This document shows, piece by piece, positions 3,049 to 29,970 of a stretch of 64,000 bases of DNA. The stretch's first letter is position 1; each line of letters starts with the position of its first letter. Source of the stretch: Sergeia podlipaevii (lineage: Eukaryota; Euglenozoa; Kinetoplastea; Trypanosomatida; Trypanosomatidae). The DNA is taken from assembly GCA_030849805.1 (NCBI GenBank), contig JASANZ010002218.1, positions 1 to 64,000 on the forward strand. Direction: 5' to 3'. The translations under genes and the position numbers were made by a program. The notes beneath the pieces were generated by a model. It saw only the letters and a list, made by a program, of their open reading frames with translations. It was not told where the DNA came from and searched no databases.

Positions 3049-6000
3049 TCACTCCTTGCTACGCCAATTTGGATGAAACGGCGCGTGCGGGGGAGCGGTG
3101 CGCATGAAGCCAGGCTGTGTTTCCAGATGCAAATCCTGTGAAACAATACGGAGTGGTCTCCGTGTCGCCCTGATCCGCTCCGCCTGCGCTTTCGTCCCGG
3201 TCACTTGAGGAGCACCTTCGACGCGGATGCCAATGTTGCGCGCCTCGTCCACGGTAAGAGCGTGCTTGCGGTATCCAAAGAGGAGATGCTGATTGAGACT
3301 TCTCTGTGCTTCATGGCGAACAAGACGCAATGGAAGCAGCTTCCGTCGCTTGGCAAGGCACATGGCATGACGTACAATGCGTTGAGGTGGGAGCTGGAAG
3401 TGATGAGAGCTACCACTGTCGTCAAAGATGTCCTTGTCGTTGTAGCAAGGGATCCATCCGTGCACGCGCTGCACGCGACGGTCGATAAGGTGGATCAGCT
3501 TCCGTAGGTTAATCACGCGGTGCCGTTCCACTTGCCAGCTCACCTCCATCACGCGCTCAAATGTACGTCGCATCGTCTCCTTCGCCTTTTCATTCTTCTC
3601 ACGCTCCTTCTTGACCCACAGAGCCTTCATCTGACTTATAATCGCCCGCAGCAGCAGCTTTATCTTCATCTGTTCATAAAGAATAGAGTGAATCTCCGTC
3701 TCTGCCTCCCCAGAAGTCGCAAGGCCGTTGTTGCGCGCCTCCTCGTCCACATCCACCTTAGTCAGCGCATACGCGTCCGCGGTGGGAGAGAGGCCGCCTA
3801 CAAATTTACGACCTAGCGCGTTAGCGAACCTGGCGCCGCCCTCGTCATCGCCAAAGTCGTCCTCTGCTCTGCCTGCGGCACTATTCCAGACACCATCCTC
3901 TCCCACCATGCTGCCGCGGTGCCCCCTGCGAGCAGCAAATTCGGACTTGTTGTCTAAGCTAAGAGTAATGCACTGTACAGGCAGCGGAACCAAGCTAGAA
4001 AGCCTCGACCGCCTGCGTATCGCGCTGGAAAACGGAGATGCCTCGCTGTTATACGTCATCTTTTCAGTGCTATCCTCAAGAAGCATCTGCGATACCATAA
4101 CTGCTTTCTGCTTACCAGCAGAAGTTACTCGGCTGGCGTTCTTTTCTTCAGAATAAGTTCCTCTTAGTGTGCCTGCATCGCTGCCGCCCTCACTATAAAG
4201 CATGCGCTCAGTAGCAGAAAAGGAAGAAGGACTACCGTCGCGGTGACGCCGGGGTAGTGCGGTGCAGCCTAGTGGCGATATCACATCTGACCCATCATTC
4301 ACTTCGTGCTGCTGAAGTGAAGGTGAGTACATGCTCTGTGCTTGCACAGCACCACCACTGGCACTGACTTGGGCCAACATATCAGCAGTGGAGCTCGCCG
4401 TTTTGCCAGAAGGCACCAGCAAATTTTTTGTATCCATTGGCTTAACCGGTACGAGCTTCGTGCCTCCGTGGGTATCACCGCTGGCACCACTGCCGAGAAC
4501 CCCACCTTTATTGACACCTCCTCTATTGCTACCGTCACTACTATTGTTGGCTCCTCCGCTGCCGTCGCCGCCGCTCTCCGCTGTCAGCAGCTGCTGTGAG
4601 GCAGCCACAATGAGATGCTCAATAACCGCGTCGTAGCGAAGAGGATCCAGCATGTACAGCTCACGTGCCTCCTCTTCAAGTTGTTGCAATTCTGAAGGAG
4701 CAGGACCACCCCCACCACCACCGGTAGCTCCGGCCCGCGCCGTACCAGCGGATAAGTTGCCTACATGTGCACCACCGGTGGCCCCACCTACGCTGAATTT
4801 GCCAATGTTTTTCATCAAAGACTTCACTTCAGAGACGTAAGTAGGTATTTGTGTCTTTGAGCTAGAAGGCGAACCGGCTGAGCCGCCCGCTCCTCCAGAA
4901 GGAAGAATCGCCTGCCTACTGGGTGCACCGCGACCTGGAGAGTTACCCATACCATTACCTGTAGTAGTGCTGCCAGGAATAGAAGTAGCTAAAGCAGCCA
5001 TGTGCTTCCGTCGTGCACCATCAGGGCCATCTACAAATTTCTTGGGGTGCGTTGCACCCTTCTTCGCGGCACCACCTTCTCCTTTAAGCCGATCAATGAC
5101 CGCCCCTGTTTCACCATCGTCCAGAACAAACACGTTAACAAGACCCGTAGTTTGAGAGCGATCGGTGATAACCCTCGCCAGCGGAGGCGGCGCGGTAATT
5201 ACAGCACTGTCAAGTCTCTCCTTGACATCATAGACGACGTCATCAACGTGGTTGCCATTCAACGTTGCCATCACTTCGTCCAGTTTCAGATTGGTAGGTG
5301 CCTCAAAGACTATCTTGTGCCCTAGTGCCTCCCGCTCAATGCGAGACGCCTCCTCCTTCTGTGCTGGTGACAACAGAGCTGCACCGTTGCCGCGGCCTCT
5401 ATTGATAGTCTTTTGCTTTTCTTTTTTTTCAAGCATCTTCTTCTTCTGAACCTCCTTCGCCTGCTTCTTGGCAGCGGCAGCCACAACAGCAGCCTCATGG
5501 CCGCTCAGAGCCGGTGTGGCCGCTCTGCCTTCCCGCGACAGCGCACTCACACGAGAAACATTCTCGAGTTCGCTGTACAGTAGACTGACTTCGCGGTTAG
5601 AGCCCCTATGGTTACCAGCGCTGCCAGCTGCACTTCTGATTGGAGAGTTAGTGGTGTTTTGATCCTGCGGCGACTTGGGCCTTTCCCCCGCAACACCAGT
5701 ACCAGCATCAGGCACACCAGCCGCAGCCGCGAGCGCGGCAGCCTCCTTCATGTCAAAACGAATGCCAGCCACGGTACCGTAGCCGCGAACATCTTCTGCG
5801 TTGACAAGCGGGCGAGAATTGGTTGAGGAGATGACGATCGTCGGAGACGCCGCCCACCCAGCTTCCAGCACAGTGTGTGTAGGAGCCTTTTTACGTCTCT
5901 GAAGAGTATGCTGAGGCGACCCAGGCCGCTGCTGCGTCGTGCTGGCGGAGTCCTCCCTCTCTGGACGCAACGCCGTTTCCACCAATCGCTCCGCCAGTTG

Positions 6001-9000
6001 CTGCAGAGATGCAGTAGCTGGCGAGGATTGATTCTCCTGCACCACCGCCACTGGTGCAGCAGCACCGCTTGTGGGTCTGCTACCGGCAGCACTGACTTCT
6101 CTAGATTGAACCAGGGCATCGTAGATAGAAGACTGGTGATCTTGTGTGGAGAGAGTACCCAGGTCAGTGCTTCCACTACGAACTGCAGAAGCCCATGCTT
6201 CGTGAGTAGCAATATGATTGACCACGTGAGCAGCAAGCTCGTCCATCGAGAACGTTGAAGGGTCCCCTGGACTAGAGGCATCACGGCCTGGCAGAGAGGA
6301 ACTCGCGACACGCAGCACCTCCGCTAGAGCCTCGTTCAGTTGTGGGCTGCTTGCATAATGAGAAGACGATTCTGCATTGCTAGCAGTCGTCTCTCGCTTT
6401 TCCTCTTCTTGCTCAACATCCACGGCGTTATCAATGGAAGGTAGCATGCCGGTCGCTGCAACGCCTACGCTACTACCCCCTCTCGCCATCTGAAGTGCGG
6501 AGAGCACCACGCAGTTCTTCTCCAGTGTCTCAGCCTCTGGATGCGCCGAATCAGACTTGCCCCACTCCTCTACAGGACGTGCATCAGAAGGAAATACATA
6601 TCCTTCAAGCAGGGGCGATGTGGGCTGCCGTGAGGTGTCAGAGCTAGAGGATGGCGCGCGCGGCGAGGTAAGTTGCTTTTCAGATTGTAGCAGAGGCAGG
6701 CGCTCGGAAAGTGGACGCACGATTGAAGTTGGGCGTGTTGAAGGTGGGCGTGCGTCGTGTGGTGGATGCGGTGACGACGTGATATCTTGTGCAAAGGATA
6801 CGGTTCTCTCTACGCGAGACGACACTGGAAGAGGAGAAGGCAAAGATGATATAGCGGTTCTCTTTGGCGATTGCTTCGGTGACGTAGCCGCTTCAGCTGG
6901 ATCCTTCCCCTTTCTAGCCGTCTTCGACCTCTTGACTGATTTTCCTGTGAGTGGTTTGGTGAGTGACTTCGAAGAGGATGTTGTTGTAAGCAAGGGAGTT
7001 GGTTCCCTGACTGGGCTGATACTTGACCTAGGGTACGTCTTGCTCACGTCGTCTGACACGATAGATGGCATGTCATTCGCATCGTTGTCGCGTTTTGGGG
7101 TAAGGGGTTCGAATAGATCAAATGCTGAAGAGGTCTCGCCACTAAAGACCAAACCGTTCTCAAACGCCGGAGGAACCACTCTCTTCTCAGCACCTCCCTT
7201 TCCTTTCTTGCCAGCTTTCGTCTTCTTCTTGCTCCCGTCCTTGTCCTTTGATGATGGTACCAAGGTAACGATTTCCTTTTCCTCGTCCGCTGCAACGGCT
7301 ATCTTGTAGGCAAGGCCAATAGATTTCACCCCCGCACCAAGTTCTAACGTTTGCAAGCCGTCCAGTTTGCTCCCGAGCAGCGTCACCGTGCCCACGCACG
7401 GGGTATCCGACAGATTCCGCACCTGCACCACAAAACGAGCAAATTTCACGGGATTCGACTCGCTCTCCTTCAGCATCCCCGCCCTCGCCTTCACCGCGTC
7501 ATGCTCGCTGAGCTTACCGACAACTGTATACTCCAGCCCACAGTTGAGGGACTCGCGCAGCAATACGCGTTGATCAAACTCGCTGAAATCAACGGTCTTG
7601 GATTCTGTATAGGAGGAGGTGGTACGAGTGTACTGCGATGATGCCGGGCGTGTAGCCGTCGAGGCGGTTGTTGACCGCTGAGGAGGAGGCGTCGCTCGTG
7701 GTGCGCTAGGTGTTCCTGAGCCTACTGTACTGGGGCGTGACGGGCTCGCAGACAAGTGGGCCGGCCGCGCTGAAACAGGAAAGGCCTGCCCGCCGATCAA
7801 ATCCAGCAGGTTGTCGTCCTCGTGCTGCTTTTCTTCAGAGATAGAGCGCACTCGATGTTGATGCAGTCGAGCCTCCATCTCCGCCACATACTCCGCCTCC
7901 GTTTTGTGCGTCGCCGCCGCCGAACCTGCTCGCTTTTTCTCAATAAACTTGGTGTAGTTATACTCCACGTAAAGCTTCTGCAAGTCATTGAGCAAGTCAA
8001 TACGCAGCTTTTGAATGTTAGACGGAACGTTTCTGCGTTGCCAGGTGCTTTCCGTCTCACTACCTTCTCTGTGACCGCGGCCGCCTTCCTCCCCGCAGGC
8101 CTGTCCTGAGTCCACAGTAGCACAGAAGCTAACATCGAGAGCTCGGTCCCACACAGGCACACTAGGTGTCTTGTGGTTCCTAGAGTTAGCGTACGAAGAG
8201 TGAGGGCGGTGGTCTTCAAGCCCAGGGGTGCGGCCGCCTCGACTCTTCCCATGAGACGTGTGCGTGGTCCAGGTGTGGTGAAGACCCGGATGGTGGTTAC
8301 GCCGAAAACTGCGGATGGTGCTGCGAAGGGTGTGGCGAAGAGTGCTGCCCATAGTCGTACTCGCTCCTTTCCTGTTGACCACATATAGCGGGCCGGTAGC
8401 AGCCTCAATATTATCTAAGCTGCCAAAGGACAGCCAGTACTCGTCCTCTTCGTCCTCTTCGTTCTCCTCTGCCTCGGCAGCGTCAATGACGTCCTCGTCG
8501 AGAGCGTCAAACATAAAGCCTAGTAAGTTGAGCTTCGCAACTTCTCCCTTGATATGCGGTGGAAGTGCCTCGCTGTGGCTCATGAGCGAAAAATGAGCTA
8601 CACTGGGTTCCAGTTCTGATGCACTCAGAGCCTCTCCCTTCTTCGCGCTAAGTCTCTTTATGAGGCCGTCCTCCACCACAGTGGCTCCCAATGGGTCAGA
8701 GGACACAGTGGGAAGCATCGTGGAAGTGAGAAAAAAGCGATCCGCCTCAGCAGCTGCATCACCAGCTTCACCCCGCTGATGAGTACCCTTCCATGGGGCT
8801 GGGGCTGTGTTCATGTTGGGCGGCTGTAGTTTATTCTCTTCGTCATCCTCCGCTTGGCCACCAACGGCGGCGGCGCCGGTGGCGGACATAAAGAGATCCA
8901 TGCTCTCTACCAACCAGCATATCTCACGGTAGTTCGAGTAGGTGCTGTTCAGCAGCTGATTGCGCATGACACGTGTCTTATCTTCTGCCTCATGATCCGC

Positions 9001-10221
9001 CACGTGTACTGCAACTTCGTCCAACTCGGCGCGCAACTTTTCTGAAAGCGCCTGCAGTGCTTTCAAGTTAAAGTCGTCCTGACGGGAGCCGTGAAAAAAA
9101 TCACTCGACAACTGTCGCATGGTCTGGCGCACCTCCCGTGGAATCAGTGGAGCCATGCTGGAGGGTTCTTCGCCGTTCTCAGTTGACTCCTGCTGCTGGA
9201 CCCGTTCTTTGGGTTGATTGGTCAAATGGTCTCGAAGAATGGCTCTCCTAGCTTCAGCTTGCTCTCTTTCTATGATGCCAAGAAGCTCCCCAATGCGGTG
9301 CTCAAGGTTGAACTTACGGCCAACAAAAGCAATCACCTTGGCTTTTTCTAGCTCAAATAGTTCACGGGCACGATCCTCATCGGTGCGAGCATGACGTGGC
9401 GCATCCATCAGCGCAGCTTTGACAATCGATTCAGCCATACTTACCTTGCGCCATACATCGCGCAGTCGACGAAGAGATGGATTGGCAATCATCTCAGCCT
9501 CTGTGTACTCCTTGTAGTTGCTGGTGCTCGGGTGTGCACCGTTGTCATACTGATAACGAAACTCATCTTGATCGTACTGGAACAACGGAATGTTTTCCAC
9601 AGGATTCGCCATGGTCTCTAATTCAATATCTACATAGCTGGTGTTCCGTTTTGCTGCCCCACGTGCTGTTGTCGTCGTTGAGGACCCATAGTTGGAAAGT
9701 GTGGGCATCACAGATACCACATGAGCACGCCCCGAACGAGCACTCAGGGAGGGAAGAGGAGGAGGAGGAGGAGCGGCGGCGGCGTTCACCTTTGATCTCA
9801 TTGAAGTAGCTAAAGAGGCGGGTGCTGCCGGTGGTTGTGATTTTGCAGCAGCAGCAACAGTTCCATTGTGTGTACTAGTGACACCGGCCTTGCGCTGCTT
9901 CCAGCGCTCTGTGGTGGCTTGTGCGGATGTCGTTGTCAGAGCCACAGAGTTCCCCACACTGCTGTGCTCGGAAGGTGCCGTGGTTACCTGGCCTAAATGA
10001 ATGCTGTTGGAAGTGGCAGCGAGGCCATCAGCGTCGTCCAATATGCCAGAACTCTTGACAAAGGAAGACCCCATACGCTTTAGTCGCCGTATAGAGGGAG
10101 AGGATAGTGAAGAGTCTGGAAGAGAATTGCGTGTGTCAACTTGAATGACAGAGACCAGCACCTCAGGCTTCATTGGCGCCAGCTTGACGCCGTTGTGCGC
10201 AGAAGTACTTGATACTGACAT
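3049..10221 (-). CDS. Very large conserved-looking protein of unknown function
   Basis: This is a single open frame of 2390 residues from the ATG at 10221; a slightly longer frame begins with a non-ATG codon at 10227. Three parts look folded. Residues about 205-320 contain a charged helical stretch (ARELFELEKAKVIAFVGRKF). Residues about 900-1010 form a beta-rich block (FARFVVQVRNLSDTPCVGTV) that could be an Ig-like or C2-like fold. The last 250 residues are helical and basic, with IKLLLRAIISQMKALWVKKE and a possible coiled coil. The rest is long disordered Ser/Pro/Ala/Gly sequence with Gly-rich and acidic runs. Such architecture is common in trypanosomatid cytoskeletal or flagellar scaffold proteins, but nothing seen here proves that. 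The upstream tract and AG at 10258-10295 support this start. No catalytic motif was found. Confidence 0.88.
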   Translation of the reverse strand: MSVSSTSAHNGVKLAPMKPEVLVSVIQVDTRNSLPDSSLSSPSIRRLKRMGSSFVKSSGILDDADGLAATSNSIHLGQVTTAPSEHSSVGNSVALTTTSAQATTERWKQRKAGVTSTHNGTVAAAAKSQPPAAPASLATSMRSKVNAAAAPPPPPLPSLSARSGRAHVVSVMPTLSNYGSSTTTTARGAAKRNTSYVDIELETMANPVENIPLFQYDQDEFRYQYDNGAHPSTSNYKEYTEAEMIANPSLRRLRDVWRKVSMAESIVKAALMDAPRHARTDEDRARELFELEKAKVIAFVGRKFNLEHRIGELLGIIEREQAEARRAILRDHLTNQPKERVQQQESTENGEEPSSMAPLIPREVRQTMRQLSSDFFHGSRQDDFNLKALQALSEKLRAELDEVAVHVADHEAEDKTRVMRNQLLNSTYSNYREICWLVESMDLFMSATGAAAVGGQAEDDEENKLQPPNMNTAPAPWKGTHQRGEAGDAAAEADRFFLTSTMLPTVSSDPLGATVVEDGLIKRLSAKKGEALSASELEPSVAHFSLMSHSEALPPHIKGEVAKLNLLGFMFDALDEDVIDAAEAEENEEDEEDEYWLSFGSLDNIEAATGPLYVVNRKGASTTMGSTLRHTLRSTIRSFRRNHHPGLHHTWTTHTSHGKSRGGRTPGLEDHRPHSSYANSRNHKTPSVPVWDRALDVSFCATVDSGQACGEEGGRGHREGSETESTWQRRNVPSNIQKLRIDLLNDLQKLYVEYNYTKFIEKKRAGSAAATHKTEAEYVAEMEARLHQHRVRSISEEKQHEDDNLLDLIGGQAFPVSARPAHLSASPSRPSTVGSGTPSAPRATPPPQRSTTASTATRPASSQYTRTTSSYTESKTVDFSEFDQRVLLRESLNCGLEYTVVGKLSEHDAVKARAGMLKESESNPVKFARFVVQVRNLSDTPCVGTVTLLGSKLDGLQTLELGAGVKSIGLAYKIAVAADEEKEIVTLVPSSKDKDGSKKKTKAGKKGKGGAEKRVVPPAFENGLVFSGETSSAFDLFEPLTPKRDNDANDMPSIVSDDVSKTYPRSSISPVREPTPLLTTTSSSKSLTKPLTGKSVKRSKTARKGKDPAEAATSPKQSPKRTAISSLPSPLPVSSRVERTVSFAQDITSSPHPPHDARPPSTRPTSIVRPLSERLPLLQSEKQLTSPRAPSSSSDTSRQPTSPLLEGYVFPSDARPVEEWGKSDSAHPEAETLEKNCVVLSALQMARGGSSVGVAATGMLPSIDNAVDVEQEEEKRETTASNAESSSHYASSPQLNEALAEVLRVASSSLPGRDASSPGDPSTFSMDELAAHVVNHIATHEAWASAVRSGSTDLGTLSTQDHQSSIYDALVQSREVSAAGSRPTSGAAAPVAVVQENQSSPATASLQQLAERLVETALRPEREDSASTTQQRPGSPQHTLQRRKKAPTHTVLEAGWAASPTIVISSTNSRPLVNAEDVRGYGTVAGIRFDMKEAAALAAAAGVPDAGTGVAGERPKSPQDQNTTNSPIRSAAGSAGNHRGSNREVSLLYSELENVSRVSALSREGRAATPALSGHEAAVVAAAAKKQAKEVQKKKMLEKKEKQKTINRGRGNGAALLSPAQKEEASRIEREALGHKIVFEAPTNLKLDEVMATLNGNHVDDVVYDVKERLDSAVITAPPPLARVITDRSQTTGLVNVFVLDDGETGAVIDRLKGEGGAAKKGATHPKKFVDGPDGARRKHMAALATSIPGSTTTGNGMGNSPGRGAPSRQAILPSGGAGGSAGSPSSSKTQIPTYVSEVKSLMKNIGKFSVGGATGGAHVGNLSAGTARAGATGGGGGGPAPSELQQLEEEARELYMLDPLRYDAVIEHLIVAASQQLLTAESGGDGSGGANNSSDGSNRGGVNKGGVLGSGASGDTHGGTKLVPVKPMDTKNLLVPSGKTASSTADMLAQVSASGGAVQAQSMYSPSLQQHEVNDGSDVISPLGCTALPRRHRDGSPSSFSATERMLYSEGGSDAGTLRGTYSEEKNASRVTSAGKQKAVMVSQMLLEDSTEKMTYNSEASPFSSAIRRRSRLSSLVPLPVQCITLSLDNKSEFAARRGHRGSMVGEDGVWNSAAGRAEDDFGDDEGGARFANALGRKFVGGLSPTADAYALTKVDVDEEARNNGLATSGEAETEIHSILYEQMKIKLLLRAIISQMKALWVKKEREKNEKAKETMRRTFERVMEVSWQVERHRVINLRKLIHLIDRRVQRVHGWIPCYNDKDIFDDSGSSHHFQLPPQRIVRHAMCLAKRRKLLPLRLVRHEAQRSLNQHLLFGYRKHALTVDEARNIGIRVEGAPQVTGTKAQAERIRATRRPLRIVSQDLHLETQPGFMRTAPPHAPFHPNWRSKE

Positions 10222-10758
10222 TTTCACCTTTCCACGTAACTAATATACAAAAAAAGGCTATAAACAGTAAAAACAAAAAAAAAAGAAAGAATACTAAGGA
10301 AATAAAAAAAAGAACTATTACTTCTAAAATAATAATAAAACGGGGCAGGTATTTGTATATGCACACTCACCAATGATGTGCGTAACTGTGAGTGCTCCTT
10401 TCTCGTGCATAATGAAAACAAAAATGTGCAAACGCAAAAAAAAAGGGGGGGAAATATATACAAAAAAACAGTATCAATAGTAGTGAAAGCCCTGAGCTCC
10501 ACGGGGAGTATCTAAAGCAACGTATGCAATCACTTGCTATGTATTTACAAAAAGAAAAATGTTTATGAAGTAACAACTGATACCTCAACACACACACACA
10601 CAAAAAAAAATCAGTATCATGTGGCATATTGTCATCACTACATTTTCATTCACACTGTAGGCGCTTTTTCCTTTTCTTTTTTTAAAATACTTTATCCCTT
10701 CTCTTTCGGCAGCTCTACAGCCAATCTCAACACAAACACGCGTATCAAGGGCACACCT
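10222..10758. other. Intergenic: 3' region of MDM12-like gene and 5' leader of the next gene
   Basis: AT-rich sequence with A-runs, a short CA repeat near 10590 and a splice acceptor near 10258. Short open frames here are Phe-rich translations of poly-T and do not look coding. Confidence 0.6.
10258..10295 (-). promoter_or_regulatory. Putative spliced-leader acceptor for the 2390-residue gene
   Basis: In sense this is a T-rich tract broken only by a few C, G and A bases, ending in TATAG with the AG at 10258-10259. It lies 36 bases before the ATG at 10221. It is the first AG after the tract, as expected for trans-splicing. Confidence 0.5.
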
Positions 10759-12348
10759 TCACGAAGCAGCAGCGGTCGTATGATCGCCACAGAGAACCAT
10801 AGGAATGCGCACAAAGTGCGGAGCCACTAACTTCTCCTGCAAAATAGCCTTGAGCTCGCGCGTAATAAACTGGCAAACAGCTCGCTCATCGACATACACG
10901 GAGTCATCTTCTTCGTCCGAATGGCTCACATCATAACGAGAAAGATAGTCCAGCGACGAGACATCGCCGTCTGCACCATCGCCCTTCTCGCCAAAAACCG
11001 CCGTTACATTCATGCGGTTGATAGGTGAACTGGATAGCTTCCCTGGTTCAAGCCACAGCCGGCATTCATTGTGAATAAGATTCACGCACACATAACAGTC
11101 AAGATCCATCTCCGAGACGTATAGCGTGATTGGGATGCGTACTGGAAGCGATATAGGACCGAGAGAAACCTCGTGCTGCACACACGCACTCAGAGCAAAG
11201 CGCATGGACCCGCCATATGTAACGTGCAGACGCAGGTACAAGCCGCCAGGACCCAAAAAAGAAGCCAATGTGTCCTCGCCACTATGGATAGCGGATTGCT
11301 GCTGCTCCACACTTGTACCAGGGCCAGCAGTACAAAACGTCGAGGTGTAAGATGGGCTGCAGCGGCTGCCGCCACTTCCCCATGCAGTACCGCCACCTCC
11401 TCCAAGGTTGTAGCTGCCACCGCCGCCAGATGTGTTGATCGCTGAAGAATTTGCGCAGAAGTTTGTGCCGGCGCCGATGCCGCCGGCGGAACTAATCGTA
11501 TCGCTACCGTTGTCAGCAACGGCCAGATTGCTAGACGGCGCAACAGACGTACTACATGGCACACAAGTGGAGTATGTCGACAATGCAATCGCAGAACTTG
11601 AGCCTCGGCAGCTAGTTGCTCCGCCAGCAGTGCTAGAGTTGAAGGAGTTGGTCTGGGCGTGGCCACGTGACATGCCTGTCGTCTGCTGACTTGTAGAATA
11701 TAGCGCGGACGTTGAAACATTCGGGGAGGCACCTGTGGCACTAAAAGACTGGAGCGGGGTGTCTGGCGCAAACTGCAGTGCATTATCGATGCTGATGATC
11801 TCCACATACGGTGGAGTGGTTCCCCACTCTATGTTAGAAATGCACAGATACTCAAGTGGGGGAAGACGAGGCTCTGCGGTCGTGTAAGAGCCCCCTGGCG
11901 TAGAGCCCGTCGGGCCGCCACTACCACCTCCGCCTGCAGCGCTGTTTTTTCTGGGACCAGTTTGCATCATACCGGTAGAGGCTAGAGTGCCAGATGAAAC
12001 ACCTGCGCCAAATGTTAGCGAAGTACTACCAATTTGTGTGGAGCCCGCTGCCATGGAACCTGTAGAGCTCACCCCAGCGCCAGGTCCGCCTGCATTCAAA
12101 CCGGAAGCCGGCAGTACCGGAGCGAGAGAAACGCCAGTCGTGTACACCGAACCGCTGCTATCTGAAGTGTCGTCAAGGCTGCTTGGATTGGAATTGACAA
12201 AGTCATTGCCACCGCTACCACCTCCTGGTGAAGGATCGCGCTTGTGAAACACCTCTTCAAGCTTTTCGCTAAGACGCGCATTGACAAAATGGCGAATCGC
12301 CTCCGCCGCGGTTTCATCAAGGCGACCCCAGTTGAAGCGGAATGACAT
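10759..12348 (-). CDS. MDM12: MDM12-like SMP-domain protein (ERMES tether/lipid-transfer subunit)
   Basis: MDM12 is the cytosolic subunit of the ER-mitochondria encounter structure and shuttles phospholipids through an SMP (TULIP) domain. From the ATG at 12348 the 529-residue product begins MSFRFNWGRLDETAAEAIRH, closely resembling the fungal MDM12 N-terminus (MSF-x-x-NW-x-x-L-x, then an amphipathic helix). Conserved SMP blocks follow. Around residue 162 is PPLEYLCISNIEWGTTPPYV, matching the MDM12 'G-x-TPP-x-(I/V)E' strand. Around 370-445 is LRLHVTYGGSMRFALSA followed by ISLPVRIPITLYVSEMDLD. Around 481-510 the terminal helix contains CQFITRELKAILQEKLVAP. Two Ser/Gly/Thr-rich inserts (about 38-158 and 195-365) split the domain, the second in a region that is also variable in fungi. 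The open frame extends upstream to 12546 and would add a hydrophobic segment, but homology favours 12348. MMM1, which has a transmembrane segment, is the alternative identity. Confidence 0.8.
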   Translation of the reverse strand: MSFRFNWGRLDETAAEAIRHFVNARLSEKLEEVFHKRDPSPGGGSGGNDFVNSNPSSLDDTSDSSGSVYTTGVSLAPVLPASGLNAGGPGAGVSSTGSMAAGSTQIGSTSLTFGAGVSSGTLASTGMMQTGPRKNSAAGGGGSGGPTGSTPGGSYTTAEPRLPPLEYLCISNIEWGTTPPYVEIISIDNALQFAPDTPLQSFSATGASPNVSTSALYSTSQQTTGMSRGHAQTNSFNSSTAGGATSCRGSSSAIALSTYSTCVPCSTSVAPSSNLAVADNGSDTISSAGGIGAGTNFCANSSAINTSGGGGSYNLGGGGGTAWGSGGSRCSPSYTSTFCTAGPGTSVEQQQSAIHSGEDTLASFLGPGGLYLRLHVTYGGSMRFALSACVQHEVSLGPISLPVRIPITLYVSEMDLDCYVCVNLIHNECRLWLEPGKLSSSPINRMNVTAVFGEKGDGADGDVSSLDYLSRYDVSHSDEEDDSVYVDERAVCQFITRELKAILQEKLVAPHFVRIPMVLCGDHTTAAAS

Positions 12349-12359
12349 TGAATGAATAA

Positions 12360-12382
12360 CTACTAGTAGTAGAACAAAACCG
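12360..12382 (-). promoter_or_regulatory. Possible spliced-leader acceptor for the MDM12-like gene
   Basis: Sense sequence has a moderate pyrimidine stretch (TTTTGTTCTACTACTAG) with AGs at 12363-12364 and 12360-12361, 11-15 bases before the ATG at 12348. If used, it excludes the upstream in-frame hydrophobic extension. Confidence 0.35.
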
Positions 12383-13038
12383 ATAATAATGATTAATACT
12401 GTAACAAAGCTCGCTATATTGTTTTTCTCCGTGTTTCCAATATATAGTGGTACAGAACGTATTGTGCTCTCCAGCATACCACAATAAAAGAAAAAAAAAA
12501 AGTTGATGAGTAAAAACAAAAAAGTTATCATATTATAGCTCCCCATTGATGTTGGGAAATAATTTTTTTCTCACCCTAGCCGTGTAACGTATATGCCCTT
12601 CGCATTCAGCGACAACTATATGTCATATGAAGAAAGGCACGCGTACCCTTCATCGTTTCTTCCTCTTTTCTCTATAAACATATAGGTTACTTTTTTGTGG
12701 TTGCTGTTGTTCAACCCTAAAATGCCACACCAATCAAAAACACACATAAGCGCACATGTGCATACATACTGGCACTTGCCGTGCGTCTCAGCCTATCTCA
12801 TCACAGCCAATCCCCTCAATGCATTATATGCGAGATATGTGGCAAATGCGTGAGAGAGAAACGCAAATATATATGTATGCGCATTGCTTCACAAAACAAA
12901 GTGTGTTTCATTTTATATATATATAACTCATTCACCTTCTCACTCTAAGCGTCATTTTTTTTTCTCCTTTCCATTCTCCTTCGCTCGGTTCACTTTCCAA
13001 AAATGGCCTAACTTCCGACAGTCACTAGAGTCTTGGCG

Positions 13039-24765: not shown

Positions 24766-27700
24766 TTACACTGCCGGTGTAGTTTCATTGAACCACATGG
24801 TGAGTACGCCATCACGTGAAGCGGATAGCAAGTGCCCTATGCCAGCAGCGTTCTCCACCACAGAGAGCGCTAGAATAGAGTCTTTGTGGTGCCTAGGTAT
24901 CGTTGCAACCGACGGCGGCTCGCCAAACTTAATGGTAGACTTCAGCGGTTGCTCCCGTATGAGTGATGGAAAGGCTTCACGACCAAATGCATTGCTCGAG
25001 GAGACTGAAGAAAAAGTAGATAAAATAGCGTGGGTTGCGGTTGTGAAAGTATAAGGCGATGACAAAAATGGGCGACAGCACAACGTATGCGAGTCCTTGG
25101 GATCACGAAGAGACCACAATCGTATGAAGCCATCTTCACCAGCAGTAAAAATAGATCCAAAGGCCGGTTGCGTGAGCATGGCACGAATCCCACGCGGTGC
25201 CTTGCGTTGTTCAGTAGTGGAGCTAAGCGAGCACAATGTAGGAGCTGTGGAAGCAGCGTCTCCGTAAAATGGCTCCAAAGCAAGTGAAGCATGGCCGCTA
25301 GCCAGATGAAGTCTGTAAACATTGCCGTTTTCTGTGCCGAGAAGTAGAGCGGGGCCGCTGCTGTTGCGCTCATGCGCAGAGCGGGATGATGGTGCACCGA
25401 CACTGCTACTACTGAAAAGAGGATCAATGCACGCTGTCAAAATAGAACGTGAGAGCGTCTGCGTGTATGCAGGCACGTGGTTGCGAGCACTCCGATAGTG
25501 CGCATCAAGAGAATAGCGCCGCACACAAAGACCAAAGCGCAGGTCATAAAGAGCGACAGCGCCGCCATATGTTGCAGCTGTGAAGGCATAGGCGGCACTT
25601 GTAAAGGCGCTATTGCTGCCGGCGAGTTGGCTCTGGGAAAGATAAAGTGGCGTGAGACAGCTTGGTGCCCCATCGAGTGGATCCAGAGTGGCGGTCCAGG
25701 ATGGTCGCCGGCCGGGCTCGCGAATGTCCATTGCATGCACGTGCCCTGTCGCTGTGGAGATGAGCACAAAGCCCTCCTGCTGCACGGCGAGATCAGTGAT
25801 CGCACCGTCGCCATCGCTGTCGTTTTGATTGGAGACATAAAAGCAGTTGAGCCTTTGAACAAATGTGTTGCTTGTGGCATCCAATAGACTCACAGTGTTG
25901 TCTGTACCACCAAGTGCCAGAAGACGACCGTCCCCACTGCCCCCGCCCGCGCCGCCACCACGTACAGGTTTCGCAAAGAGATAGGCGTGCTCGAGTGCCC
26001 CAGCAGGCACTCTTGCCATCACGCGCAGCTCAGAGCCGATCAAGCGCCACCACAACGCCTCCCCCATTGCCCCTGCGGTGAGAAAAGTTCCGTCTCGGGT
26101 GGTCTGCGTGCATGCGTTGATCGCACCCATGTGGGCCGCGTATGAATGCAGTGGGACGGCAATCGGGCGAAGTGGACGTTGCTGGCTCGAAGTAGAAGAG
26201 CAGTAGACACCCGGAGTAAAGATCTCCTCAAGGCCACTTGCAGGTGATAGCGACGCCGGTGACTCCATAGAGCGTTGCTGGAGTGCCACATCTTTTGAAT
26301 CGCTATGCTGCCATAACTGCGGAGCGAGGCGTCGCTTGCAGCAGCGGATTGCCTCACGAGGTGTAGGTGTGTAGGTCAGGTTCCAAGTATTGCCCTTACT
26401 TGTGCTGGCATCGACCGTTGCTACGTCCTCCTGCTCCCTCAAATCGTCTCCGTTCCTCTCCCGCTCACCAGGGCTTTGCGTCCCACTCTTCACTCGTACA
26501 GAAGTCGCAGCCTGCCATGACGGAGAGGACGATGGTCCAGCATCCGTCCCACTTGTGCTACGGCATAGCGAGGCGTCATACATCTCAAGCAAGTTCATAT
26601 CAATTGAGCATGCGGCTTTGCTGTCCCTCACACGTATAGAATTCGATATGGGCACTACGTAGGAGCCGCCTTGCCCTAGGCAACCGCCAATTAGCATCGT
26701 CTTGTCGGGCGCAATCGTGCGCTTTGTTGAAAACTGGGGCCCTGTGGCCGCCACGGCAAGCTCCGCACGCAGCACAGACAAGCATGCCCCAAGTCTCTCC
26801 AGCGGTGCACTGCTGGTCAACATTGGTGCCACAGCGCATTCTAAGTACGTTAGCACCTCGCTGCCGCGGTATGTCTGCGCTGCCGCCTCCACAACCCCGC
26901 ATGCGGCCTGTGACACCCACATGCTGGAGCTCAGCACGTGTGGCAGCGCCTGGTGAACAAGCGTCATGGTGTCCCACACTCCCAGCTTGCGAGAGCGTAC
27001 AATGAGAGTGATGCCGTCAAGCGTCGTCTTGAGGCAAGTGATGTCCTCTGCTTGCCTGAGGCCTTCCTCCACGAACAGCCTGAGTGTATGAAGTTGCGGT
27101 CGTTGCAGCAGTAAGTGAGCGGCAATAGCGCTAGGATACAGTTCTCGCTGGACCTGTGCCGCGGAAGCAATTGCGGTAGTAAGAAGAGGAATCAGATCAT
27201 CTCGGCTGCGTGCCTCGCCTAAAAAGATTGCAACCTGCAGTGTCTGCCGCATCACAGCAGTGACAACGGGGACAGCAGGGTGTTTATAGAGAAGCTGAAG
27301 GATATCCCATCCGGTGTTGAGCAGTTCGTTCAGCTGCAAGCCGTAGGACGGTAACTGAATGCTCTCTCCACATGTGCCTTGACCACCACCTACTGTAGTA
27401 GTAGTAGTGGTGGTGCTAGTCCCGCTAGCTGTGTGGTAGTGCGAGGTATGATTCCTCGCCATCGCGAGACACTGGCGCTGCTCCAGGTGATAGCGTGCGT
27501 GTCTAAGTAGAAGAGGCAGGCAAGACCCAAGCTCCACAAGCACACCAATCTCCTCTGTGCTAGCAAGACGGCAAGTTTCTGCGATGCACGGAAGAATCAA
27601 GTCGTCAAAGAGAGTGACTCGTCTCCACATCGCATCCATAGGATCCCCAATCCCTCCACCAGCTGGCACTTCCGCTTCTCTATCCGCCATTTCTTCATTC

Positions 27701-29970
27701 AGGTGACTCTTAGTGCCCGTCATACAGCGCAAGTCTTCTGATGCTGCGGTCGCGATTGCACACACAATACGAAGCGCCACCACACGAGTCCCACAGGGGT
27801 ACTCCGCCACACTATTCAAAAGCACGAGTGCATGTGGAATAATAAAATCGAGCTGTGTAGCCAACGAAATGTTGGGGAGGCACCACCGCTGTAAGCAGAC
27901 GACACCACGGTACGTGGCGTCGTCAGTAGTAGCTGCACGAAGAGAATGAAAGAGAACAGGAAGTACGAATCGGATAAGCTGCTGACGGGCCTGCATCTTC
28001 TTCGTCGTCGTCTTCGCCGTCTCGGCCGCGCGGTCCGCCTCCTTTACACGACTCTTCTCGCTATCCTGTGAGGTGGTTCCAGGCACAGAAACACTAGTCC
28101 TCTCCGGGTTAAGCGTACAGTCGGGATCCCATGTGACGCCCCCTGTCGCGCTACCCTCATGATCTTGGCCTTCGTGCATCACGGTAAGCCGGTCGCACTC
28201 GGCCAGCACATTCCCCAGTTGAGAAGCGAGCAACTGTAGCTGCACATCAGGGGGGTTTGCTAGCACTTCAGGTAGTACAGAGTCGTGCATCAACGCGAAA
28301 TATCTTGGAAATACGAGTGGAGTGTGCGTCTCAAGCACTCTGCGTGCGGATGGCCGCTCCTGAGGCATGGCGCACAGCATTGAAAGCAGCATGTGGAGCA
28401 CACCCTCGGAAAGGCCACCACCGCGCTCGCTTAGGCGCGGGCGTACAAGGGCTTCCCTGGCCTCCATAGAGGAAAGTGACCGTAGCTGCAAGACTTCAGA
28501 GAGTTTAAAAAGAGGCTCATCTGTGAGAATATACGCCATTACGCATGCCGTGGAGAAGATATCCATCGAGGGGGTGTGTCCATTAAGGTTGATATTGGTG
28601 ATATTAATATGCGCCCTCGAGCCTGCAGGAAAGTCTGACGGTTGCACTGGCAGCGGCGCATCGGTAAACTTCTCCGGAGCCAGACAGCAGCAGCGGGTCT
28701 CGTCTGTGTCGTAGTAATAGTCAAAGAGAGCGGGGTTGTTAGCAGGGACACGTGTGGGTTTGAAGGGAGCAAGATCAGTGAGATAAAGCCACCCAGTGCT
28801 CTGCAGCAACACATTGTTTGCCTTGATGTCGCCGTGAACGATGCCGTACGTATCGTGGAGCTGCGCAACCGCGTGGAGAAGCTGAAAGCAAAGAAAAAGT
28901 CTCTCTTCCCAGCTTACGCTCGGCCGCATCATAAGCCGCTCAGGGAGGGAAGAGGCAATGAAGGGTCTCTGAAGCATACAGAAGCGCTCCTGTGCCACCA
29001 TAGAGCGATAAAATAGAATGTGACGAGGATAGTGCATGCGTGGCAGCGTCGCATCAACCACCAAAATCTGCTCTTCCATGCTAGCAAGAAGCGACTGCAC
29101 ACGATTAATGAACCACTGCTGCCCACGGTCATCGGCAGTGCGCACAAACACCTTTGTGACGGTGTCCCGCTTGCACTGCGTAGGCGGCGGTGACGCTGGT
29201 GAAGGAGGCAACATCTGTGTAGAGCTTGAAGCCGCAGCTGTGGCCGCTGCGTTGCCCTCTGCTCTTAAAGCCGTCTCTGCCATCTGCTTCACCGCAGCAG
29301 CCCATGGCGACTGAGGGTGTGCGAGAGAATGTGCAGCACCGCCATTTGAACCTGAGAGGTTGGCATACGGGGATGAAGCTGCTCCTCCACTGCCTGCAAG
29401 CCCGTTGCTGCCCAATGGTGTATCCGATGCCGCAACGGTAGCTGCAGTGCCGGCTCTCCTCGTGCCTGGAAAGGCAGCCCATAAACCTCCGCCCCCCGCG
29501 CCACCACCGTCACCCACACCGCCGACCGCGGTGCCGTCTGTATAATTGCCCATCCTATCCCTCCGTAGCATCAGTTGCGTATAGTTGGCATGGCGACTGG
29601 CTGGTGCACCGGTGAGCTGAAGCGTCGCTGCTGTCGTCACGGCCATTGTGGAAGCTGCCGCGGCCGCTGTGCTATCTGTTGTACCCCTAGAGGAAAAGAA
29701 AGCACCTATGCCGCTGCTGCTGCTTGTCATCGACATCGCTCTTGCGCGACGTTGAAGCGCACGCCTGCGGTGCTGTTGCTCACGTGGAACTTCTGGTTTC
29801 GTGTCTCGCACGATATCACCAAGAGAGGCGGCGCTCGTGGAGACTGTATCATAGCAGCGCACGGTAGTAAAGTAGTTCCGCCCTTCACCGCCCAAGGGAG
29901 CAATAAGCTCCAACGACGGTGAAACATCAAAGAGATTGACGGAGACCGATGCTGCCAGCTGATTGCCCAT
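24766..29970 (-). CDS. VPS15: VPS15 (PIK3R4) regulatory pseudokinase/kinase of the class III PI3-kinase complex
   Basis: VPS15 is the myristoylated scaffold that anchors and activates VPS34 for autophagy and endosomal sorting. The 1734-residue product starts MGNQLAASVS, the classical VPS15 N-myristoylation site. The kinase domain shows VTKVFVR (beta-3 Lys), IVHGDIKANNVLLQ near residue 377 (catalytic loop) and YLTDLAPFKPTRVP near 396, where VPS15 has DLA/DFA-PFKP in place of DFG. The Cys-rich CCCLAPEKF motif follows. Residues about 650-1150 are helical and fit the HEAT-repeat region (VLFHSLRAAT, LVELGSCLPLLLRH). The last 430 residues form WD repeats, for example GEDGFIRLWSLRDP and SASRDGVLTMW. 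The protein is longer than the human one (about 1360) because of a low-complexity insert of about 190 residues between kinase strands 2 and 3 and Ser-rich linkers. The identification is very secure. Confidence 0.95.
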   Translation of the reverse strand: MGNQLAASVSVNLFDVSPSLELIAPLGGEGRNYFTTVRCYDTVSTSAASLGDIVRDTKPEVPREQQHRRRALQRRARAMSMTSSSSGIGAFFSSRGTTDSTAAAAASTMAVTTAATLQLTGAPASRHANYTQLMLRRDRMGNYTDGTAVGGVGDGGGAGGGGLWAAFPGTRRAGTAATVAASDTPLGSNGLAGSGGAASSPYANLSGSNGGAAHSLAHPQSPWAAAVKQMAETALRAEGNAAATAAASSSTQMLPPSPASPPPTQCKRDTVTKVFVRTADDRGQQWFINRVQSLLASMEEQILVVDATLPRMHYPRHILFYRSMVAQERFCMLQRPFIASSLPERLMMRPSVSWEERLFLCFQLLHAVAQLHDTYGIVHGDIKANNVLLQSTGWLYLTDLAPFKPTRVPANNPALFDYYYDTDETRCCCLAPEKFTDAPLPVQPSDFPAGSRAHINITNINLNGHTPSMDIFSTACVMAYILTDEPLFKLSEVLQLRSLSSMEAREALVRPRLSERGGGLSEGVLHMLLSMLCAMPQERPSARRVLETHTPLVFPRYFALMHDSVLPEVLANPPDVQLQLLASQLGNVLAECDRLTVMHEGQDHEGSATGGVTWDPDCTLNPERTSVSVPGTTSQDSEKSRVKEADRAAETAKTTTKKMQARQQLIRFVLPVLFHSLRAATTDDATYRGVVCLQRWCLPNISLATQLDFIIPHALVLLNSVAEYPCGTRVVALRIVCAIATAASEDLRCMTGTKSHLNEEMADREAEVPAGGGIGDPMDAMWRRVTLFDDLILPCIAETCRLASTEEIGVLVELGSCLPLLLRHARYHLEQRQCLAMARNHTSHYHTASGTSTTTTTTTVGGGQGTCGESIQLPSYGLQLNELLNTGWDILQLLYKHPAVPVVTAVMRQTLQVAIFLGEARSRDDLIPLLTTAIASAAQVQRELYPSAIAAHLLLQRPQLHTLRLFVEEGLRQAEDITCLKTTLDGITLIVRSRKLGVWDTMTLVHQALPHVLSSSMWVSQAACGVVEAAAQTYRGSEVLTYLECAVAPMLTSSAPLERLGACLSVLRAELAVAATGPQFSTKRTIAPDKTMLIGGCLGQGGSYVVPISNSIRVRDSKAACSIDMNLLEMYDASLCRSTSGTDAGPSSSPSWQAATSVRVKSGTQSPGERERNGDDLREQEDVATVDASTSKGNTWNLTYTPTPREAIRCCKRRLAPQLWQHSDSKDVALQQRSMESPASLSPASGLEEIFTPGVYCSSTSSQQRPLRPIAVPLHSYAAHMGAINACTQTTRDGTFLTAGAMGEALWWRLIGSELRVMARVPAGALEHAYLFAKPVRGGGAGGGSGDGRLLALGGTDNTVSLLDATSNTFVQRLNCFYVSNQNDSDGDGAITDLAVQQEGFVLISTATGHVHAMDIREPGRRPSWTATLDPLDGAPSCLTPLYLSQSQLAGSNSAFTSAAYAFTAATYGGAVALYDLRFGLCVRRYSLDAHYRSARNHVPAYTQTLSRSILTACIDPLFSSSSVGAPSSRSAHERNSSGPALLLGTENGNVYRLHLASGHASLALEPFYGDAASTAPTLCSLSSTTEQRKAPRGIRAMLTQPAFGSIFTAGEDGFIRLWSLRDPKDSHTLCCRPFLSSPYTFTTATHAILSTFSSVSSSNAFGREAFPSLIREQPLKSTIKFGEPPSVATIPRHHKDSILALSVVENAAGIGHLLSASRDGVLTMWFNETTPAV

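Follow-up and report, generated by a model that had tools for sequence, protein, structure and literature searches.

Among described systems, the one closest to the gene treated here is the ERMES (endoplasmic reticulum (ER)–mitochondria encounter structure), in which the cytosolic SMP subunit Mdm12 bridges the ER-anchored Mmm1 and the mitochondrial Mmm2/Mdm34, and in which the SMP domains make a hydrophobic passage for phospholipids (PMC10648710). Of the yeast subunits, two, Mmm1 and Mdm10, remain indispensable when an artificial tether is supplied (PMC13151913). Here we describe a gene of the trypanosomatid Sergeia podlipaevii, located in a 64,000-nucleotide stretch of contig JASANZ010002218.1 (the window, by which we mean this whole stretch), whose product has Mdm12 as its best profile match among the SMP families compared. 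We consider it fairly probable that this protein also works as Mdm12, that is, as a soluble lipid-transfer module bridging the ER and mitochondrial outer-membrane sides of a contact site.

Papers disagree on the machinery that tethers ER and mitochondrion in trypanosomatids. Orthologues of Mmm2 and Mdm12 have been proposed for T. brucei, according to a 2018 paper citing Wideman 2013 (PMC6027259); a 2019 review, in which the 2013 paper is apparently also the source given in a table for Leishmania, states that in T. brucei the homologues do not come together in a complex (PMC6871780). According to a 2021 paper, a related complex has yet to be identified (PMC8630539), and a 2023 paper describes L. 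donovani as being without SMP-domain proteins (PMC10341546). An SMP-bearing extended synaptotagmin (E-Syt) has been characterised in T. brucei (PMC8093936), and a 2025 paper reports that none of the four ERMES subunits was retrieved in Diplonema. An earlier sequence-only reading of the window had proposed an MDM12-like ERMES component at this locus and was aware of no characterised ERMES in trypanosomatids, a statement that has to be tempered by the orthologues previously proposed for T. brucei. An Mdm12 orthologue has thus already been proposed for that species, and the doubt lies in its partners and its place in the cell. Our literature search, in which subscription papers mostly fell outside coverage, returned no title or opening abstract reporting a study of this protein. 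The gene family described below, together with a candidate Mdm34 from the same genome, supplies concrete genes for this discussion, and these genes may bear on how a cell with one mitochondrion obtains its lipids.

The protein family and its match to Mdm12

The gene is an intact open reading frame (ORF), translated without interruption from MSFRFNWGRLDE. Searches in which about 8,000 candidates were scored each time, and beyond which occurrence outside trypanosomatids is possible, found 24 different relatives. The 17 that carry an organism name are all trypanosomatid (six Leishmania, none of them L. donovani, one Porcisia, two Phytomonas and eight Trypanosoma, the T. equiperdum member being P0022), and the other seven are assembly proteins. 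Nine of the 24 bear the UniRef name "SMP-LTD domain-containing", so the domain has already entered database names. Judged by their sequences, these relatives make the 2023 claim that L. donovani has no SMP proteins doubtful. When the organism's own genome (23.4 Mb, 576 contigs) was searched with a relative, a single copy of the gene was detected, and the only other match (E 0.78) was to a low-complexity protein.

No Pfam or NCBIfam model matches the protein, and PF10296, which yeast Mdm12 itself matches, is likewise silent. Using hhalign, we compared a core profile of the family (22 rows, 219 columns) with a small profile for each SMP family, built from three sequences for Mdm12 and two each for Mdm34, Mmm1 and E-Syt, with column-shuffled decoys as controls. 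Against Mdm12 the family scored 92.4 (probability 98.1, 196 columns), a score reached by none of 200 decoys. The corresponding values were 48.6 for Mdm34 (probability 91.7, 0/200 decoys), 24.7 for Mmm1 (probability 5.1, 1/200) and 20.0 for E-Syt (probability 1.2, 8/200). Because Mdm12 scored 71.6 against Mdm34 and 50.5 against Mmm1 when these were used as yardsticks, the family is closer-scoring to Mdm12 than those relatives are to one another. With only the PDB-derived Mdm12 sequences of yeast and K. lactis as reference, the score was 51.9 (probability 92.8). By these profiles, then, Mdm12 is the best match among Mdm12, Mdm34, Mmm1 and E-Syt. Neither a non-SMP family nor Mmm1 or E-Syt ranked over it, the outcomes that the sequence-only reading had regarded as speaking against its proposal.

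Predicted structures point the same way in their ranking. Models of the window protein and of a compact relative both begin with a long helix, which is followed by eight strands and finally by a second helix and a short closing strand. Foldseek searches of the PDB with the model of the T. conorhini relative returned Mdm12 in all of rows 1–19, 17 of them with E <=0.001, and Mmm1 at E 0.93; the window protein's own weak model returned Mdm12 in rows 1–18, with a best E of 0.006. The family's standing as Mdm12-like, trypanosomatid and SMP-related, as first read from the letters, is therefore upheld by the profiles and by the fold ranking, in which Mdm12 comes first and Mmm1 a long way behind.

Several observations weigh against assigning the gene to Mdm12. 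The models contain no well-formed barrel, though their elements follow the expected order, and their best TM-score to a target is 0.32. A 20-row tree neither recovered nor rejected an Mdm12 grouping by the approximately unbiased test (p-AU 0.176), and it likewise rejected neither a grouping with fungal Mdm34 (p-AU 0.182) nor one with Mmm1 (0.207). Mdm34 is the second-best profile match, at 91.7% with 0/200 decoys as high, and filamentous Mdm34 alone, at 50.4, stands level with K. lactis Mdm12. These last points, with the Mdm34 grouping left standing by the tree (p-AU 0.18), would suit a protein of Mdm34 type, or of a third SMP lineage, that is no orthologue of Mdm12. We regard such an origin as quite improbable. 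When each reference was a matched pair of one filamentous-fungus and one yeast sequence, the family scored 86.0 with Mdm12 against 48.6 with Mdm34 and 26.9 with Mmm1; Mdm12 was also preferred over Mdm34 in all three sub-profiles and by the window protein alone over the core columns (Mdm12 61.4, Mdm34 42.3, Mmm1 31.7, E-Syt 19.6). Scores with single sequences were uneven, both for Mdm12 (yeast 32.1, K. lactis 49.9, filamentous 70.1) and for the others (filamentous Mdm34 50.4, yeast Mdm34 18.6, filamentous Mmm1 29.8). The filamentous-fungus reference sequences and that of yeast Mdm34 are assumed by us to be correct, which lowers the weight of the contrast between Mdm12 and Mdm34. Two further features speak against an Mdm34 type: the window protein stops shortly past its SMP region, as Mdm12 does, and the genome holds a better Mdm34 candidate elsewhere.

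It is also conceivable that the protein is not SMP at all and resembles such proteins by coincidence, through a strand-rich composition, as the lack of a Pfam or NCBIfam match and the weakness of the models might suggest. Given that no decoy of 200 equalled the Mdm12 score, that the first 19 fold rows are all Mdm12 and that the SMP-LTD name is carried by nine of 24 relatives, we consider this explanation extremely improbable.

Candidate partners and the proposed contact-site role

A filamentous-fungus Mdm34 query, its sequence likewise assumed to be correct, gave one match in the genome, at C352:36225-36521 (E 0.0028). It lies in an ORF of 353 amino acids (C352:35568-36626, equivalent to L006:841-1902 (-)), found in one copy, that opens MLQWDWPHVW and contains TPPQLTL. 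The ORF has no Pfam match and no PDB sequence match. Its end resembles that of Mdm34, a resemblance equalled by 4 of 2000 shuffles. Taken as a single-sequence core profile, it scored 39.2 (76.8%) with the Mdm34 references, whose sequences are assumed to be correct, with 0/150 decoys as high, and 29.2 with Mdm12 (0/150), 19.3 with Mmm1 (3/150) and 14.7 with E-Syt (44/150). Against filamentous Mdm34 alone the score was 29.3, level with Mdm12, in an alignment that spans the first half of the core only. In the 20-row tree the protein groups with fungal Mdm34 on a long branch (support 79/82). From these sequence comparisons, the C352 protein is likely Mdm34/Mmm2.

The same genome encodes a 624-residue extended synaptotagmin (C474; L001:547-2421 (-)) with an SMP domain and two C2 domains, the C-terminal of which matches 7a1r (2.4e-28); it is the counterpart of TbE-Syt (PMC8093936). 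No credible Mmm1 match was found in the genome by a search that was insensitive, as a fungal Mdm12 query missed the window gene too. Mdm10 was not found with PF12519 and PF01459, models that gave nothing in control genomes either, and neither porin nor Miro was found in searches whose fungal Mdm12 control missed the window gene. Since the fungal Mdm12 query overlooked a gene that is present, the failed searches for Mmm1 and Mdm10 say nothing about absence. The question of which partners exist here, raised in the sequence-only reading, can be answered in part, with a candidate Mdm34 and an E-Syt present in the genome.

By homology, we propose that the Mdm12-like protein bridges, and carries lipids between, the ER and the single mitochondrion. 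A hydrophobic groove would hold phospholipid acyl chains, and the protein could dock onto a mitochondrial Mdm34-like partner, for which the C352 protein is the candidate. On the ER side its partner may be a diverged Mmm1 that escaped detection or another ER protein. The ERMES role is drawn from homology to the fungal complex and should be read as such.

A different place in the cell is also worth considering. The gene could descend from Mdm12 without bridging ER and mitochondrion, the Mdm12-like and Mdm34-like proteins acting together at another contact, such as that between acidocalcisome and mitochondrion or the kinetoplast attachment zone, or the protein serving as a free lipid carrier. The failure to detect Mmm1 or Mdm10 fits such a role, as does the footnote to Table 1 of PMC6871780, according to which ERMES homologues in T. 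brucei do not assemble into a complex and have no part in ER–mitochondrion contacts; acidocalcisome–mitochondrion contacts have been described in T. brucei without known tethers (PMC6027259). However, Mmm1 and Mdm10 were sought with too little sensitivity to speak for loss, and the retention of the family from Leishmania to Trypanosoma, alongside a candidate of Mdm34 type, suggests that the two are conserved as a pair. We therefore rate this relocation unlikely and continue to favour an Mdm12-like bridge between ER and mitochondrion.

A more speculative idea, doubtful though not far-fetched, is that trypanosomatids have kept half of an ERMES, namely Mdm12 and Mdm34 without Mmm1 or Mdm10, and that its ends are formed by another ER protein (e.g. 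the E-Syt with its two C2 domains) and by an outer-membrane barrel of trypanosomatid type. If so, lipid would be supplied to the single mitochondrion through a rewired SMP bridge, in a reverse of the situation in which the Mmm1/Mdm10 pair suffices in yeast provided with an artificial tether. Should a sensitive search uphold Mdm12 and Mdm34 without Mmm1 or Mdm10, this would be a puzzle given the yeast tether result (PMC13151913).

Domain blocks, start site and genomic setting

The sequence-only reading had placed the SMP blocks in the right order, and they are indeed present as three segments separated by two inserts (Table 1). These blocks are the conserved portion of the family alignments (15 rows; 24 rows), and in the 15-row alignment the W, the G, both P and the E of the WGTTPPYVEI block are invariant. 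They go beyond what chance would give, since they are family-conserved, since both models show the same order of elements and since none of 200 shuffled Mdm12 profiles matched the score. The G/S/T/A content of the blocks is 22%, 22% and 25%, as compared with 63% and 62% in the inserts, which are probably disordered spacers between the predicted elements. For insert 2 this fits its position in the loop where yeast Mdm12 has a stretch absent from the crystal construct 5gyk. Owing to short inserts, the named Trypanosoma members are compact (332–353 amino acids), the exception being a 153-residue fragment.

Table 1. Position of the Mdm12-like gene, its predicted blocks and its upstream stretch in the window
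Feature	Coordinates	Strand	Basis
Coding sequence, Mdm12-like protein, 529 amino acids plus stop	10759..12348	-	Uninterrupted translation; profile and fold-ranking match to Mdm12
Residues 1-36, conserved start and first helix	12241..12348	-	Alignments; helix 7-36 in model
Residues 37-160, low-complexity insert 1, 63% G/S/T/A, short in Trypanosoma relatives	11869..12240	-	
Residues 161-197, first two strands, WGTTPPYVEI	11758..11868	-	Strands 165-175 and 181-188 in model
Residues 198-354, low-complexity insert 2, 62% G/S/T/A	11287..11757	-	
Residues 355-522, LPVRIPI onward: six strands, acidic loop, terminal helix, last strand	10783..11286	-	Model; end-to-end Mdm12 profile alignment
In-frame open upstream stretch, ATG at 12546, hydrophobic segment; taken as untranslated	12349-12570	-	

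The mechanically called ORF starts farther upstream than the gene as we define it, at 12546. We prefer the MSFRFNW start because 21 of 24 family rows open with M-x-x-x-F-(N/D)-W (alignment A3, with the window protein counted and P0011 left out; P0010, P0016 and P0024 are apparent fragments) and because G+C falls from 55% in the coding sequence to 30% in the upstream DNA. An MSFRFN opening is thus present, as had been noted, but it does not single out Mdm12: yeast Mdm34, in the sequence that we presume to be right, begins alike.

Were translation to begin upstream, a membrane anchor would be placed on the SMP module and the protein could play the part of the ER-anchored Mmm1. Ahead of the conserved start the frame does stay open for 74 codons, more than in any other of the 19 genes taken in the window, and the hydrophobic segment lying next to the conserved Met has a hydropathy of 3.28, which puts it second among the 135 open intergenic stretches that reach 40 codons. 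The drop in G+C, the use of the conserved Met as the start in those 21 rows and the poor profile match to Mmm1 all argue the other way, and we hold the anchored form to be very improbable. Base composition and the relatives' starts indicate that the 74-codon stretch is probably untranslated. From the conserved start onward the maximum 19-residue hydropathy is 1.23, without a strongly hydrophobic segment, and the Mdm12-like protein is accordingly predicted from its sequence to be soluble, with no membrane segment downstream of that start.

The window appears to be a one-directional gene array: all 19 of the non-overlapping ORFs taken as genes, which were our own pick from the ORF list with no curated annotation, lie on the minus strand. 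Next upstream of the Mdm12-like gene, a Pfam/NCBIfam scan identifies the 26S proteasome subunit RPN2 and an NSUN5-type methyltransferase; downstream lies a low-complexity ORF of 2392 amino acids (3049-10227 (-)), with a GTG opening in the mechanical list. An ORF of 1734 amino acids (24766-29970 (-)) has a protein-kinase domain near its start and WD40-like matches near its end, a layout that presumably recalls VPS15. Between 33222 and 63829 (-), Pfam matches identify topoisomerase 3-beta, a TRIP13-like AAA ATPase, the replication protein A large subunit, an SNF2 helicase with a RING finger, a class II aldolase-like protein, a kinesin and a lysine methyltransferase.

Comparison with known SMP proteins

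Like fungal Mdm12 (yeast 5gyd, K. lactis 5h5a), the window protein begins and ends with its SMP region and has the same predicted order of elements; the profiles align end to end over about 195 columns at 22–25% identity, and a long insert falls in the loop to which the stretch absent from yeast construct 5gyk belongs. It differs in being about twice as long by virtue of its two low-complexity inserts, unlike the compact Trypanosoma members, in having an acidic loop before the last helix and in lacking a PF10296 match. With Mdm34/Mmm2 it shares a similar start, the PP-x-(I/L/V)-E strand and the second-best profile match, whereas its score in the matched test is lower and a separate Mdm34 candidate (L006) exists in the genome. 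Mmm1 belongs to the same SMP family and has residues in common in the last strand and helix, but the window protein, counted from the conserved start, lacks an N-terminal membrane segment, and its profile score is near that of the decoys (1/200 as high).

TbE-Syt, which combines a membrane hairpin with two C2 domains (PMC8093936), is another trypanosomatid SMP protein. Neither feature occurs in the window protein: the Pfam/NCBIfam scan gave no C2 match, there is no membrane segment, and the family's score with E-Syt lies in the decoy range (8/200 as high). The orthologues of Mmm2 and Mdm12 that were put forward for T. brucei in 2013, as related in PMC6027259, probably include the gene family to which the window protein belongs.
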